NCBI GenBank assembly: GCA_947170225.1
Contig: CAMVSQ010000001.1
Coordinates: 1-64,000, forward strand
Origin: an uncultured bacterium
GTDB taxonomy: Bacteria; Patescibacteriota; Gracilibacteria; Absconditabacterales; Absconditicoccaceae
DNA length: 64,000 bases
Direction of reading: 5' to 3'
Every line of letters starts with the position of its first letter. The first letter of the stretch is position 1. Made by a program: the position numbers and the translations under genes. Positions 1,407 through 15,867 of the stretch are shown one piece after another. Under the pieces are notes generated by a model. That model was not told the origin of the DNA and did no database searches. It saw only the letters and a program-made list of their open reading frames with translations.

Positions 1407-4400
1407 TTAAATTTTTGGATTCATTACTACTCGATGGAAATTTTCTCATCCATCCTCTACTATTTCATTCCTCGTTATTTCATATCACTGTTTTTCTGCA
1501 TATGCTTCTATCATACGATAACTTGTTTCTTCCCTTGCTCTCGTAAATACAGACATATCTGGATATTTCTCTTTTACTTCTTTCATCCAATGATGGATCA
1601 TCTTTATTCATGCTGGTCATCTATATTTTTTGTCCATCGCAAAATCTGATATATATATTCATGGTGTTCCATCTTCCATTTTTCACTGATATGCCAATAT
1701 ATATCATCATATTTGTCATTCTTCATTATACCATGCAAATGATAGATTTGGTCTGTTTTTCAAGGTATTATTTAAAATACTTGCTGTAATTTCATGCTGT
1801 AAATTTCATAAATGGTCTTTCATTGATGATGGATATATTTTTCATTCCATATACGATATCTGTACTACATCCTCTATAGATAATGGATGGATTCAGACTT
1901 TTTTCTGCTTTTCTTTTTGCTCTCATGCATCTAAATCTCATTTCAAACTATATGATTCACTATTATCACTATATGCATTTACAAATACTGGTAAACTCTC
2001 ATTTGGCACTTTATCTGTCAATATATTCAATTTATTGTAGCTTACTCATGAATAAAATTTACTTGTATTGATTGGTATTCCATTGGGTGATATTGGATTT
2101 TGTCTTACATATTCTGAGAAAAATTTCTCATACATTTTGCGAACCGCTAATTCATTTTTTCTTCCAAAATTTGGATTTGCTTCGATATTATCCATAGTAA
2201 TCACATACTCACTTGGATCTTTGTAATCTTCAAATTTATCTCACAATACATTTGCTATATCATGAGTTGTCTCACTTTTTACTTTGTTTAATAATGTCTC
2301 AAAATTCTCTGGTATTGCTCTATTTAATGTCACCCAACTCGTCACTTTCAGATTATCTTCTTTTGGATTTTGTTCTCATTCGTAGATACAGAAATCTGTA
2401 CAATATGGATTAAACATCGCTACTACTTTCTTTCCATGTCATTCTGCCAAACTATCACAATTAAATCCATTAAACCGATTATTAGGGTCACTCTTTGGAC
2501 TAATTTTGGCTGTCATCAGCTTTAAATCTTTGTATTTATTGAATTCACTATATCACAGATTTACAAACATATTTATGAGGTCTTCTGCTCAGTATTTTCA
2601 TAATAGGTTTTTAACGAATTCATCTTTATTGGCTTTCCATTCTTTAAACCACATTGTCTCATCTCCTTGTTCCTTTAATTTTGTGATAATAACGGATATT
2701 TTTTTCTTATCAGCTCAAAGCAAAAATTCGCTTATTCTTTGTTGCAGTGCTTCCTTTGTATATACATCACTTCCACTTATATAAAACTTCATCTCAAATG
2801 GCTTGAAATAACTAAGCTGATCATATATTCATAATGGTAAGCAATCTACTAAATCCTTTGCATCAAAATCCAAATATTCAAAATTCTCTACCATATTTGA
2901 TGGTTTCTTTGCTTGATGAATTCTATTCAAACTGCTAAATGTAGTGTCATCCAATCCCAAAAATTCTCATGGGTTTTCATACATATCCATTATTATTGGT
3001 TTTGTCCTTGGATGATATATCGCTGATTTAAAGTATTCATACAACTTTTTATCTTTTGGATCTTCGCTCTTTGCTAGTTTCTGTAATTTGATTAGTGCTT
3101 CTTTGTTTCTTATCATATGGAGCAAAGTTAGGATTTGTTCAAAATTATCTAAGTTTTTGTATAGTTCACCTGTCTTTTCTTGTTCTAATATTCATTCTGC
3201 CAAGTCTATAAATTCAATATTTTCTTTAAATTCAGTCATATTCATAGCTCATTGTACTGATTCTTTCCGACCCGAATCATATTTTTCTAAAAAGTTATTT
3301 AATTGTTGATATCCGTTATTTCTATCTCAAGCTACTCATAAATAATTTTTTATAAATTCTTCTTTACTTATTCATTTGGTTTCTAGCTGTTTTGCTAAAT
3401 CTATTATTTTATCTGCATGCAACAATGCATTATGTGGATCTCTAAAACGATTTTTTAATTTTTTATCTCATGGTACTTTATCTACAAAATATGTCCAAAC
3501 TCATTCTCAGAAATACTCTTCCATTTTCTGTAATTTATTCTTTTCTTCCTGTGGATAACATTCTTTTTTTATTTCCCATATTTTTTGGTAGTCTTTTTCT
3601 TTTACTACAATTTCTATTCCTTTAAAATATTCATAATCATGTTTATATAAATACTCAATTTCTTCTTTTGAAAAACAATCATCCATTTGGTTTATAAACT
3701 CAATATCTTGTTCTCTAATTTTATTCATATTTTTCTCAAAGAAACTTATTCAAACTAATGTAATATTTTGTAACAAGCTAATATCGAAATTTATTTCACT
3801 TTTATCCAATATATTTAATTTTAACAGCTCTGGTACGATATATCTTGCAAAATCAGCATCTGAATGTAACCAAATATGATCTGATTCTGATTTTGCTCTC
3901 TCAAATGCTCTTTCCAATAGTTCCCTATATCGTTCTTTATCGCTTTTTTCTAGTATTTCTAATTTTAACAGCTCTATCACAACTTCTGCCCAAGCACGAT
4001 CTGATTTTGCTCTCTCAAATGCTATTTCCAATAATTTCTTATATCGTTCTTTATCACTTTTTTCTAGTATTTCTAATTTTAACAACTCTGGTACGATATG
4101 TCTTGCCCAATAAGAATGTGAATTTGCTCTCTCAAATGCTATTTCCAATAATTTCTTATATTGTTCTTTTATTTCACTTTTTTCTAGTATTTCTAATTTT
4201 AACAACTCTGGTACAATATGTCTTGCCCAATAAGAATGTGAATTTGAATCTGATTTTGCGTTCTCAAATACTGTTTCCAATAAATCTTTATATTGTTCTT
4301 TTATTTCACTTTTTTCTAGTATTTCTAATTTTAACAGCTCTATCACAACTTCTGCCCAAGCACGATCTGATTTTGCTCTCTCAAAAGCCATTTTTAGTAA

Positions 4401-5594
4401 TTCTTTATATTGTTCTTTTATTTCACTTTTTTCTAGTATTTCTAATTTTAACAACCCTGGTACGACATAGCTTGCCCAATTTCTACTATCTATTTTTGCA
4501 CTCTCAAATACTATTTCCAATAATTTCTTATATCGTTCTTTATCACTTTTTTCTAGTATATTTAATTTTATCAGCTCTGGCACTACACATTCTGCCCAAG
4601 CACTATCTGATTTTGCTTTCTCAAATGCTATTTCCAATAATTTCTTATATCGTTCTTTATCACTTTTTTCTAGTATTTCTAATTTTAACAACTCTGGTAC
4701 GATATGTCTTGCCCAATAAGAATGTGAATTTGAATCTGATTTTGCGTTCTCAAATGCTGTTTCCAATAGTTTCTTATATCGTTCTTTATCACTTTTTTCT
4801 ATTATTTCTAATTTTAATAGATTTGGTACGACTCATACTGCCCAATGCCAATCTACTTTTGCTCTCTCAAATGCTGTTTCCAATAGTTTCTTATATCGTT
4901 CTTTATCACTTTTTTCTAGTATTTCTAGTTTTAATAGCGCTGGTACGATATGCATTACCCAATACTCATCTGATTTTGCTCTCTCAAATGCTGTTTCCCA
5001 TAGCTTCTTATATCGTTCTTTATCACTTTTTTCTATTATTTCTAATTTTAATAGATTTGGTACGACTCATACTGCCCAATGCCAATCTACTTTTGCTCTC
5101 TCAAATGCTGTTTCCAATAGTTTCTTATATCGTTCTTTTATTTCATTTTTTTCTAGTATTTCTAATTTTAACAACTCTGGCATTACATAATCTGTCCAAT
5201 TACGATCTGATTTTGCTTTCTCAAATGCTGTTTTTAGTAATTCTTTATATTGTTCTTTTATTTCACTTTTTTCTAGTATTTCTAATTTTAACAGCTCTAT
5301 CACAACTTCTGCCCAAGCACGATCTGATTTTGCTCTCTCAAAAGCCATTTTTAGTAATTCTTTATATTGTTCTTTTATTTCACTTTTTTCTAGTATTTCT
5401 AATTTTAACAACCCTGGTACGACATAGCTTGCCCAATTTCTACTATCTATTTTTGCACTCTCAAATGCTATTTCCAGCAGCTCCTTGTATTCATTTTTTA
5501 TTACTTGATTTTCAATCGCCTCTGGATTAGTTTTTAGTATTTGTAAAAAATTTTCAATTTTTTCGTTTTCTGCATTGTTATTTATTCTTTCCAT
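1407..5594 (-). CDS. Giant helical-repeat protein with C-terminal GNAT-like domain
   Basis: 1395 residues with TGA as Gly; a single uninterrupted frame from ATG 5594 to TAA 1407. After a ~35-residue leader come 14 tandem units of 38-48 residues (about 35-610) with the core LLKLEILEK, each predicted as paired amphipathic helices, so an alpha-solenoid scaffold is likely. Residues ~620-1250 are a large region I do not recognise. The C-terminus (~1255-1395) resembles a GNAT acetyltransferase: IYISDFAMDKKYRGPAG fits strand beta4 plus the acetyl-CoA pyrophosphate-binding loop. There is no signal peptide. The promoter at 5624-5652 serves it alone. I infer a protein-binding repeat arm attached to an acetyltransferase; substrate unknown. 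The fold of the middle region is open. Confidence 0.85.
3780..5490 (-). repeat. 14 tandem ~120-bp coding repeats
   Basis: The repeats encode the solenoid of the giant protein. Units differ by small in-frame indels. Two-unit blocks at about 4326-4506 and 5286-5466 are almost identical in DNA, and another pair (about 4795-4880 and 5030-5115) is also nearly identical, which indicates recent duplication or gene conversion. Confidence 0.9.
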
Positions 5595-11454: not shown

Positions 11455-12813
11455 ATGATCAAAGATTTGACACAATGAAAAATTACAAAGACGTTGATTT
11501 TGTTTGCTTTGCCGATGATTTTGGGAAACATGATCCAGCAAGTGTACAATATTGCAGATACTATTATTGTTTGAAGATTTATTTCTGACACTGCTTTGGC
11601 TTCTGTAGGTGCAGCATTTCCTATATTTTTTTTGTTAATTTCTATACCGATTGGATTGGCTACATGAGCGAGTGTAATCATATCTCAACTTTTTGGTGCA
11701 AAAAAAGATAAAGATGTAAAGAAAGCATCTTACACAGCTTTAATAGCTGCATGAATTTTGGGGATAATTGTAAGTTTTGTCTGAATCTTTTTGTGTAAGC
11801 CAATATTGGTTTTGCTGAATACTCCTGCAGATATAATTTTGTGATCTCAACAATATTTGCAGATAATTTTTGCATGTGTAGGATTTTTGTTTGTATTTGA
11901 TATGGCTACATCTACCTTTAATGCTTTGGGAGATTCTAGGACTCCTCTAATATTTTTGACCATATCTGCAGTATTGAATATATTGCTAGATTTGCTGTTT
12001 GTGATCAAATTTGGATGGGGAATTGCGGGGACAGCTTGGGCTACTGGGATTTCTTGTATAATAGCGACCATACTTGCTGTATGGACACTGCTAAAGAGAC
12101 TAAAAACATTTAACACTGAGAATTTGGACAAAGTTTTTGACTTTTCATTTTTGAAAAGCATGACAAAAATTGCTGTACCAGCAATGTTAAACCACTCTTT
12201 GGTAGCAGTATGAGCTTTGGCTATACAAGCAATAATAAATTGATTTGGAAATAATGTAATTGCATGATACACTGCTGCTTCCAAAGTAGATACTTTGGCA
12301 ATGTTACCAATTATGAATTTGTCTGTGGCATTGGCTACTTTTGTAGCTCAAAATCTATGATCTGGAAAAATTGGTAGAGCAAAAGCATGATTTAGATCTG
12401 CACTAATAATTTCGATTTGCTTTGCTATATTTATGGGTATAATCATACTTTTGTGGTGAGATATGATAATGAAGTTATTTTTGGATAGTGAAGTAAACAG
12501 TGAAATCATTGAATTTGGAAAAGGATATCTCATGGTCGTTGCTTTTGGATATGTTTTGATGTGATTTTTGTTTAATTCTGGAGCGGTATTGAGAGCGTCT
12601 GGGACTATGAGACCGTTTGTGATTAGTACTATAATATCAATTTGAGCAAAAATTGCTGCCGCCTATTTGTTGGTGTGAGTTTTGGGAGCAAGTGTAATTT
12701 GGTGGAGTGTGATTATAGGTTGGTGAATTGGGGCAATAATTTCTATGCGAGCATATTTGAAATGAAGTTGGCAAAAAACTAAGATAATAAACGATAATGT
12801 TTTGAAAATTTAG
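11455..12813 (+). CDS. MATE family efflux transporter
   Basis: 452 residues, usual for the family, with about 12 hydrophobic segments. Exports drugs or metabolites in exchange for H+ or Na+. Seen: PMILGNMIQQVYNIADTIIVGRF near the N-terminus and the internal pseudo-repeat PAMLNHSLVAVGALAIQA around residue 242, each opening one half of the transporter. DinF/NorM-like by sequence; substrate unknown. Gly is TGA at many transmembrane positions. It stands alone, followed by the small-RNA region. Confidence 0.9.
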
Positions 12814-12852
12814 TTTGCTGATTAAGAATTTGATATAAAAATTGGAAATTAC

Positions 12853-12880
12853 TTGACTTTGAATTTTATTTTGCTACTAT
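12853..12880 (+). promoter_or_regulatory. Promoter of small RNA candidate 1
   Basis: TTGACT, 16-bp spacer, TACTAT. It resembles the promoter of the second unit 230 bp downstream. Confidence 0.65.
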
Positions 12881-12886
12881 CATTGT

Positions 12887-13042
12887 GGTCTAGTTTTTCT
12901 TCAGGGAGGAGGCTACCTTTGTTTTGCATGATTCTTGGTAGGTAAACTGCTTTCCTCCCTACCATTTGACATCAAAGGAGAATTTGTATATATCAAGCAT
13001 TGCTTGAGCAAGCTAGGATGTATGTTGATCCTAGCTTTTTTT
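12887..13042 (+). ncRNA. Small RNA candidate 1 of a tandem pair
   Basis: About 156 nt from the predicted +1 to a strong terminator. No reading frame of note. Internal pairings GGGAGGA/TCCTCCC and, mutually exclusive, GGTAGG/CCTACC suggest two alternative folds. Length and lone-standing nature would suit 6S RNA, but I cannot show the 6S bubble. It is not upstream of a gene that would make it an obvious riboswitch, because a second complete unit follows. Confidence 0.5.
13012..13042 (+). terminator. Terminator of small RNA candidate 1
   Basis: GCTAGGAT/ATCCTAGC stem followed by seven T. Confidence 0.85.
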
Positions 13043-13081
13043 GTAAATAATGAATTTATTGATAATTTCTTTTAATATTGC

Positions 13082-13109
13082 TTGACTTTTAATATTATTT
13101 TATTATAGT
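13082..13109 (+). promoter_or_regulatory. Promoter of small RNA candidate 2
   Basis: TTGACT, 16-bp spacer, TATAGT; near-copy of the first unit's promoter (CTTGACTTT in both). Confidence 0.65.
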
Positions 13110-13115
13110 TAATAA

Positions 13116-13312
13116 CACAAAGATGGAGAGGTGATAGCAAGAACTTCAGGTTCTTCCTATATTATAAATCAATTCAGACGCGTTTTTTTAATACTACACT
13201 TCTCTTTCTTTGTTGTATGCTATGGAATCCATACGCATAATGTCATATATATACTCCAATACTTTTTGTGTTGGACCAAGACTAGGATGATTTTGTATTG
13301 TCCTAGTTTTTT
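13116..13312 (+). ncRNA. Small RNA candidate 2 of a tandem pair
   Basis: About 197 nt. Inferred long-range stem CACAAAGA..AGAG with CTCT..TCTTTGTTG, a local hairpin AAGAAC/GTTCTT, and the same 3' end style (CAAGACTAGGATG, terminator) as unit 1. Similar promoter, similar terminator and shared TATATAT tract upstream of the terminator argue that the two units are diverged duplicates. Confidence 0.5.
13281..13312 (+). terminator. Terminator of small RNA candidate 2
   Basis: ACTAGGA/TCCTAGT stem followed by a T-run. Stem sequence CTAGGA is shared with the terminator at 13012-13042. Confidence 0.85.
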
Positions 13313-13389
13313 CACTTGAAAAAAAAATAATTTATTGTAAATTAGTTTATAGTTTGTTTGTATTGTTTTTAATTTATAAAAATTTCATA

Positions 13390-15867
13390 GTGGATTTATT
13401 AGCGATTTCTTATAGTAATATCTGACCATTTAAGTGAAAAAAGAAGAATATCTTTTTTAAAAATTGAAAATATTTGATCAAAGCTCCAATTGGAAGTGGA
13501 AAAAGTTTTTTGTTTTTTGATGGTCCTGTCTATGCTTTGTACAAGTACAGCTCGAGGAATATTTTGAATACCGATAGCAAAAATTGATTCATAAAATTGC
13601 TTTTTGAGCAAGATGAACAAAAATATTTGATAATCAGGAATTTGGAACAAGGGAAAGCAAAAGACATCTGCAAATCTCAGTTTTTTACAGTAGATTGAAA
13701 TTTTGAATTTGATGGCTCTGAAATTTTGGAAGATTGAAAAAAAGATATCCAAGAAATACTAATTGAAAAATGATTAAAATTAGATGAAATAGTTTTCAAA
13801 AATGAGACAGATTTGGATTGAACTTTGAGGTGATATTTGCCTCCAAAAGAGGTTTTTTTGAGCACGGTTTTCTTATTGCAAGATAGTGAAAATATCTTTG
13901 AATTGCAGCCAGCAGACAGACTTACTGTCATGAAAAATATCTTTAATTTAGTCTGAATTGATGATGTAAAAGATCAAATCGCTGACAAAAAAAAGGAAAT
14001 TCAAACCACATTGAAAATAAAATCTGACACTACCCTATTCGACAGTAAAATTAAGATAAGTTTGAATAATTATATCAGAGATTTTAGAAATATTGAAAAT
14101 AGCAAGATAGTCGAAATCAGTAGCGAAACATCTGATTTTGTGAATGAATTAGAAATGATTGCCGAAAAAGTAAATATTAATGATTTCAGTATGGAATGAT
14201 TTGATATGGAATTAAGTGGAAAACTAGAAAATAAGATAGCTGAAAAAATGAAAGATTACCAATGATTTTTGTTGAATCTACAAAATACAGAAAAAAATAT
14301 AAACGAGAAAAGAGAGAAAATATTGTGATTTAATACCGAAAAATCTGGTATTGAAAGGCAAATCTTTTCTATCGAACAGAAAATTTCATGATTTGATCCT
14401 GAAAAAATAAATTTGAAAAAAAAGAGAAAATTAGAGCTATTTAATGAGATGGAAGGCTTGCAAAAATGAGTAAATTATAATGTGCAAATCCCAAATGAAT
14501 TAAAAGATATGGACTTAAAGGTCTGAAATGATTTGGAGTCGATGGATGAACTCGTAAATCAAATCACAATCCAATGAAAATCACTGGCAGATCAAAAAAA
14601 GTTGAGAGAAAGCCAAATAGAAACTGCAAAAATCAAAATTGAGTCACAAAATAAGAATTTAGAAATTGAAATGAAAAATTTACAAATGAATATTGAGTGA
14701 ACGAAGTGACAGCTGAAAAATGTGGAAAAAAGAATTGGGGAAATAGATAATACAATAAACAAAGAATCACAGTTTGATTGTGCAAAGATCAATTCAAATT
14801 GCCCTTTTGTAAAAGAAATAAATAGATGAACTTTCCAAGAATTGGAAAGACAAAAAGGAAATTTAGAGAAAGAAAAGTCTGAGCTTATGACGAAATTGGA
14901 ATGATTTGAAAAATTATTGAATGGAAAAAAGTGACAAAATCTCGATTTATGAGAGAATCAAAGTATTTCAGATTTGACCAAAGAAATTGGAAATATAGAT
15001 AGACAAATTCAATCATTGAGATGATTTTTAGCACAAATCGATTTCAAAAAAGTACAGGAAAACTGGCAAAGCTGGAAAGGTTTGAATATGGAAAGTCAGT
15101 CTTTGGACAAAGAGATCTTGGAATTAGAAAATTGAGCAAAAGAATTAGAAAATCTGAAAAATGAAAAAATCAAATTATCACAACAAATTGAAAATATTGC
15201 TTGAAATATTGAAAGTCTAAATAAAGAAATTCAGGACTTAGAAAATCAAAAAACTGAACAACAAAAACTAGTAGATAGTTTTGAAATCAGAAAATATGAA
15301 GAATGGGATAAAGTAAACAAAAATATGGAAAGATCATTGCATGAAATCAAAGTCTTGGTCGATGATTTCAAATGAAATTCATTGGAAATAGAAAAGCTGA
15401 AACAAGATGAAATTATGGTAAAAAATCTTCATCAAATTTTCTCAAAAGAATTATTGTTGTTTGTTTTGGAGTGATATTTGCCGATTTTGACTGATATAAT
15501 CAATGCTCTACTCGCACAAGTAGTAGATTATACAATAGATATCAAATTGAAGCAAAAAGGAGAAAATTTGGAAATGGATGTAAAAATATATGATGAAAAA
15601 TGAGAAAGAGATATCAAATCTCTGAGCTGATGACAGAAAGTCATTTTGAAACTCGTACGAATGCTCGCAATATCAAACTATATCAAGTCTCCAATGCTAT
15701 TTATGGATGAGACTATAAATAATTTGGATCAGGACACAGTCGGAAAGGTCGCTGAAATGCTATGAAATTTCGTAAAACAGAGAAATGTAAAACTATATAC
15801 AGTCACGCATAGCCAACAAATTCAAGAAATGGATATTTGGGATGAGGTGGTAGAAATTAAGAATTAA
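13390..15867 (+). CDS. SbcC/Rad50-like AAA ATPase
   Basis: 825 residues; GTG start chosen because VDLLAISYSNIGPFK is the typical first strand of SbcC/Rad50 and no upstream ATG exists. Walker A APIGSGKS at ~30-37; two long coiled-coil stretches (about 200-640) around a short hinge with SNCPF (a possible zinc-hook-like CP, but only one Cys); C-terminal signature SLSGGQK, Walker B MLFMDETINNLD and the H-loop THS. These proteins hold DNA ends and drive a nuclease partner; no sbcD/mre11 gene is adjacent. Glycines of the LSGGQ signature are TGA TGA, direct evidence for the code. Confidence 0.9.

Follow-up and report, generated by a model that had tools for sequence, protein, structure and literature searches.

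Two short units, each with a promoter and an intrinsic terminator of its own, lie one behind the other on the plus strand of the 64-kb stretch of DNA that was analysed as a whole (the window). The source assembly comprises 953 kb and belongs to a bacterium with genetic code 25, in which TGA is a glycine codon. Both units are located within a 576-base gap (12814-13389) between a gene for a MATE-family transporter (11455..12813, plus strand, code 25; PF01554, E 2.8e-57) and a gene for an SbcC/Rad50-like protein (13390..15867, plus strand), which has a putative GTG start and matches PF13558 weakly, under the curated cut-off. The SbcC-like gene is present in 47 of 49 family genomes. The family genomes with any match at all to the MATE gene number 10 of 49, and the same-genus genome is not among them; the gene has likely been acquired, and no relative of its protein was found among viral contigs. 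The arrangement is not kept in the family, be it followed via the SbcC-like gene or via the MATE gene, and the regions upstream of the SbcC-like gene that were examined in relatives, the same genus included, do not contain comparable units. As an observation apart from these genes, the minus strand of the window carries at 1407-5594 a frame of 1395 codons with many repeats of a EKSDKERYKKLLETAFERAKSD-type unit.

The promoter of unit 1 (12853..12880, plus strand) consists of TTGACT (12853-12858), a 16-base spacer, and TACTAT (12875-12880) preceded by TG; that of unit 2 (13082..13109, plus strand) consists of TTGACT (13082-13087), again a spacer of 16 bases, and TATAGT (13104-13109). The intrinsic terminator of unit 1 (13010..13041, plus strand) is formed by a AAGCTAGGAT/ATCCTAGCTT stem at 13010-13037 and a subsequent T run, and the terminator of unit 2 (13281..13313, plus strand) by an ACTAGGA/TCCTAGT stem at 13281-13307, likewise followed by a T run. 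With its start placed from the promoter, unit 1 would give rise to a transcript of about 155 nt (12887..13041, plus strand), a prediction drawn from this anatomy, and the putative transcript of unit 2 would have about 197 nt (13115..13313, plus strand).

A strict rule that asks for the promoter consensus and, at most 300 nt downstream, for a perfect stem that holds G+C and is followed by a T run identifies exactly two units on both strands of the window together, and these are the two described here. The sequence-only reading of this DNA, which had proposed two promoter-to-terminator units of about 156 and 197 nt, is thus confirmed in this respect. Among 5000 dinucleotide shuffles of the gap, 4999 contained no unit, one contained a single unit and none contained two. 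A permissive consensus scan provides weaker support: it yields 7 promoter-like sites vs 4.6 expected, i. e. shuffles produce such sites nearly as often, and the only terminator that it reports is the one of unit 1.

The two units resemble each other in their control elements. The promoter blocks (12848-12872 and 13077-13101) are identical at 22 of 25 bases (88%), a likeness that was reached by none of 1000 shuffles, and 2 of 1000 shuffles were as good as the two terminators; the shared promoter core and terminator stem noted before are therefore beyond chance. The genome contains no exact matches to the promoter pattern other than these two, and nine viral contigs match it. Since TTGACTTT is also found upstream of several reading frames in family members, part of the likeness of the promoters reflects a lineage consensus. 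The bodies of the units, as had been seen, differ: an alignment of equal or better quality was reached by 781 of 1000 shuffled pairs. The AU-rich tract that was taken as a further common feature is indeed present in both units, but it is low-complexity sequence. Since promoter and terminator are alike and the bodies are not, our data speak for shared control elements, and the idea that the two RNAs are tandem paralogs is not supported.

Folding, conservation and possible partners of the units

The two bodies behave differently when folded. The fold of unit 2 has a predicted energy of -60.7 kcal/mol (z about -6 to -7), and even the body of this unit without the terminator is far more stable than expected by chance (z -5.4). 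The predicted fold begins with a long imperfect hairpin (13117-13213), followed by two smaller hairpins and the terminator. For the whole of unit 1, z is about -2, and its body without the terminator is ordinary, with 48 of 200 shuffles being as stable. In unit 1, two alternative stems are predicted (12904..12963, plus strand): In state A, GGGAGGA at 12904 pairs with TCCTCCC at 12953 and encloses a CTACC/GGTAG pairing, whereas in state B, GGTAGG at 12937 pairs with CCTACC at 12958. For the whole RNA the two states have nearly the same energy (-44.3 vs -44.0 kcal/mol; pair probabilities of about 0.93 and 0.07), and the predicted best fold alternates between them as the chain lengthens. The two mutually exclusive stems that had been recognized in unit 1 thus exist, but they are not exceptional: an equally dissimilar alternative fold within 1 kcal/mol occurs in 13 of 200 shuffles, and the stems are for this reason no evidence of a switch. 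More generally, PMC8250186 stresses that the stability of one sequence's fold does not show that the structure is conserved, and we regard such folding as weak evidence of function.

In a blastn search of the 481-base region against 59 genomes, only short matches were obtained, most of which fall on the AT-rich spacer that separates the units. One terminator-like match (in G022) was dismissed as it lies antisense within a large reading frame. Both units are present in single copy: among the matches listed, the others in this genome correspond to the AT-rich spacer and the second promoter. Covariance models built from the single sequences of units 1 and 2 and applied to up to 49 family genomes gave a convincing score only with the units themselves. 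Of the weak hits of the unit 2 model, one lies within a coding sequence (L136), and at two further loci (L071, L073) inspection of the sequence revealed no comparable unit. As a positive control, the 6S RNA of this genome was compared with that of the same-genus genome by blastn, and the two are 76% identical over 138 bases (E about 1e-20). As 6S RNA is so easily found there, the units must be less conserved than 6S RNA in that genome, or absent from it; the same-genus genome does possess the SbcC-like gene, with no such units upstream of it. The genomes searched included one of the same genus, and relatives in other species are possible. Collections of phages and plasmids did not contain a match to the units. 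Without conservation, there is no covariation for either unit. The sequence-only reading had made its proposal dependent on conservation in relatives, and none were found in the family; of the lineage-specific sRNA family that it had envisaged, no second member was found in the genome or in the family.

Known RNA classes do not account for the units either. Rfam, used with the gathering score and with E up to 10, assigned them to no credible family, and the covariance searches for 6S RNA, tmRNA and SRP RNA, which had been suggested, did not match them: RF00013 and RF00169 gave no match to the units, and neither ARAGORN nor Rfam detected a tmRNA in the window. Independent of the units, RF00169 was used to scan the whole genome and 12 relatives. 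With E <= 1 as the limit, neither this genome nor any of the 8 family members included was positive, and 13 of 14 control genomes were; SRP RNA may have been lost here or may have strongly diverged. A CsrA sponge RNA was considered and rejected: PF02599 is absent from 21 genomes, i. e. this one and 20 relatives, in a search that found the family in 3 of 14 control genomes. The numbers of GGA triplets in the units are ordinary by the standards of the window.

The units pair with the translation start regions of 40 genes of the window no better than shuffled units do. If the first possible start codon is taken for these 40 genes, none has a Shine-Dalgarno-like motif (GGAG, GAGG or AGGA) about 3-20 bases upstream, and with starts chosen by this rule, the presence of such a motif carries little information in this genome. 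An anti-Shine-Dalgarno action of the C-rich CTTTCCTCC in unit 1 was set aside, given that there are no such motifs and no excess of pairing.

A divergent 6S RNA elsewhere in the genome

6S RNA binds RNA polymerase and serves as template for short product RNAs. Among 49 family genomes, RF00013 reached the gathering score in none and gave four sub-threshold matches, none of them in this genome. Closing stem and central motif are common to all four, and these four family members were used to build a lineage model. At E values no higher than 4e-4, this model detects 6S RNA in 29 of 39 family genomes, including the four training genomes. In the genome studied here, 6S RNA is located on contig 3 (64854-65009, plus strand; E 3.8e-10 with the lineage model). 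In the alignment, which is fitted to the model and hence leans towards its structure, 87% of the cells pair; the share is 72% in shuffles and drops to 37-55% when the partners are slid. The covariation score amounts to 0.51 vs 0.22. A TTGAAA-type promoter is present just upstream of the gene in most of the genomes, and 16 of 29 have a gene for a protein with the RNHCP motif downstream, as confirmed by Pfam for this genome. In a sample of 145 genomes of the class that was searched with stricter filters, the model found one more genome outside the family; beyond the family, 6S RNA is either too different for the model or absent.

On the strand of the units, the lineage model gives only 9.0, 8.7 and 6.2 bits, and the top two matches fall on the terminators. 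The proposal that the units are duplicated 6S-type RNAs, which would bind RNA polymerase, does have points in its favour: their lengths fit, members of the 6S family are found in this lineage, and the Bacillus cereus group provides an example of tandem 6S genes (PMC7726162). However, the genome's own 6S RNA, with conserved structure and promoter, lies elsewhere, and neither 6S model recognizes the units. We therefore regard the proposal as refuted at the level of sequence and structure, and the chance that it is right as negligible.

Discussion

Our work suggests, with a probability of roughly 60%, that the two units are orphan sRNA genes restricted to their lineage, which are transcribed separately and probably act in trans. 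The anatomy of the units supports the earlier view that they are genes for small non-coding RNAs. From its own sigma-70-type promoter to its intrinsic terminator, each unit would produce one discrete RNA (about 155 and 197 nt, respectively), and the genes may be confined to this species and its nearest relatives. The product of unit 2 is predicted to be a stable RNA with several hairpins, and that of unit 1 to be folded weakly or in alternative ways. The near-identical promoters suggest that both RNAs are made under the same conditions. As to their origin, the promoter or the whole cassette may have been duplicated, with the interior diverging or being replaced later on. Most orphan intergenic sRNAs are trans-acting and base-pair with mRNAs, and this would be the most likely mode of action for the units as well.

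It is tempting to consider the position of the units upstream of the SbcC-like gene: They could form a cis-acting leader, with an attenuator at the end of each unit that permits read-through upon a signal. The gene is on the same strand, 76 bases separate the second terminator from its putative start, and unit 1 is predicted to adopt either of two folds that hardly differ in energy. On the other hand, equally different folds are found in the 13 of 200 shuffles mentioned above, unit 2 has a promoter of its own downstream of the unit 1 terminator, and the gene is nearly ubiquitous in the family, yet the upstream regions examined lack comparable units. We thus consider such a leader unlikely, and to about the same degree we doubt that the units are functionless remnants which entered the genome along with the MATE gene or in some other insertion event. 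The patchy occurrence of that gene, for which the same-genus genome and most family genomes gave no match, would agree with the latter scenario, as would the lack of relatives of the units. Decay does not fit well with promoters and terminators that are still intact, nor with the fold of unit 2, which is far from random, and no copy is present elsewhere in the genome or in the phage and plasmid collections.

Even less probable is the idea that the units are small mRNAs for short peptides. Code-25 frames of 77 and 69 codons do cross them, and in unit 1 AAAGGAG precedes a TTG by 3 bases. However, both frames run on through the terminators, their best Pfam match is no better than E 0.09, and AAAGGAG tells little if none of the 40 genes of the window, with their starts chosen as described, has such a motif. 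A further possibility builds on the contrast between common control elements and unrelated interiors: The units might represent a cassette that keeps its promoter and terminator while the RNA in between is exchanged or evolves rapidly. With two units that carry unrelated payloads, we regard this as quite improbable; if true, it would provide a bacterium with a small genome with a way to make new regulators.

The interpretation of the units as two orphan sRNA genes provides concrete, well-delimited targets for a first transcript test. The more useful result, however, is the by-product of the analysis, i. e. the discovery of a family-wide and divergent 6S RNA that is largely missed by the Rfam model. 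Accordingly, calls on the absence of housekeeping RNAs in organisms of this kind ought to be repeated with lineage-specific models. A search of the literature, mostly outside subscription journals, for 6S RNA or small RNAs in Gracilibacteria, Absconditabacteria, Patescibacteria and the candidate phyla radiation returned nothing on point.

A comparison with known systems places the units closest to the orphan intergenic sRNAs. With 6S RNA (RF00013), including the tandem genes of the B. cereus group, they share the length range and the tandem arrangement, but 6S models do not match them and the true 6S RNA is encoded on contig 3. Sponge RNAs of the CsrB/RsmZ type are similar to unit 2 in their multi-hairpin build, their several GGA triplets and their poor sequence conservation, whereas a CsrA protein to be sequestered is lacking in this genome and in 20 relatives. 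The units differ from orphan intergenic sRNA genes of bacteria in being two adjacent genes that have promoter and terminator sequences but not their bodies in common; what they share with these genes is their own sigma-70 promoter and intrinsic terminator, a length of 155-200 nt, the intergenic location and the occurrence in one lineage.
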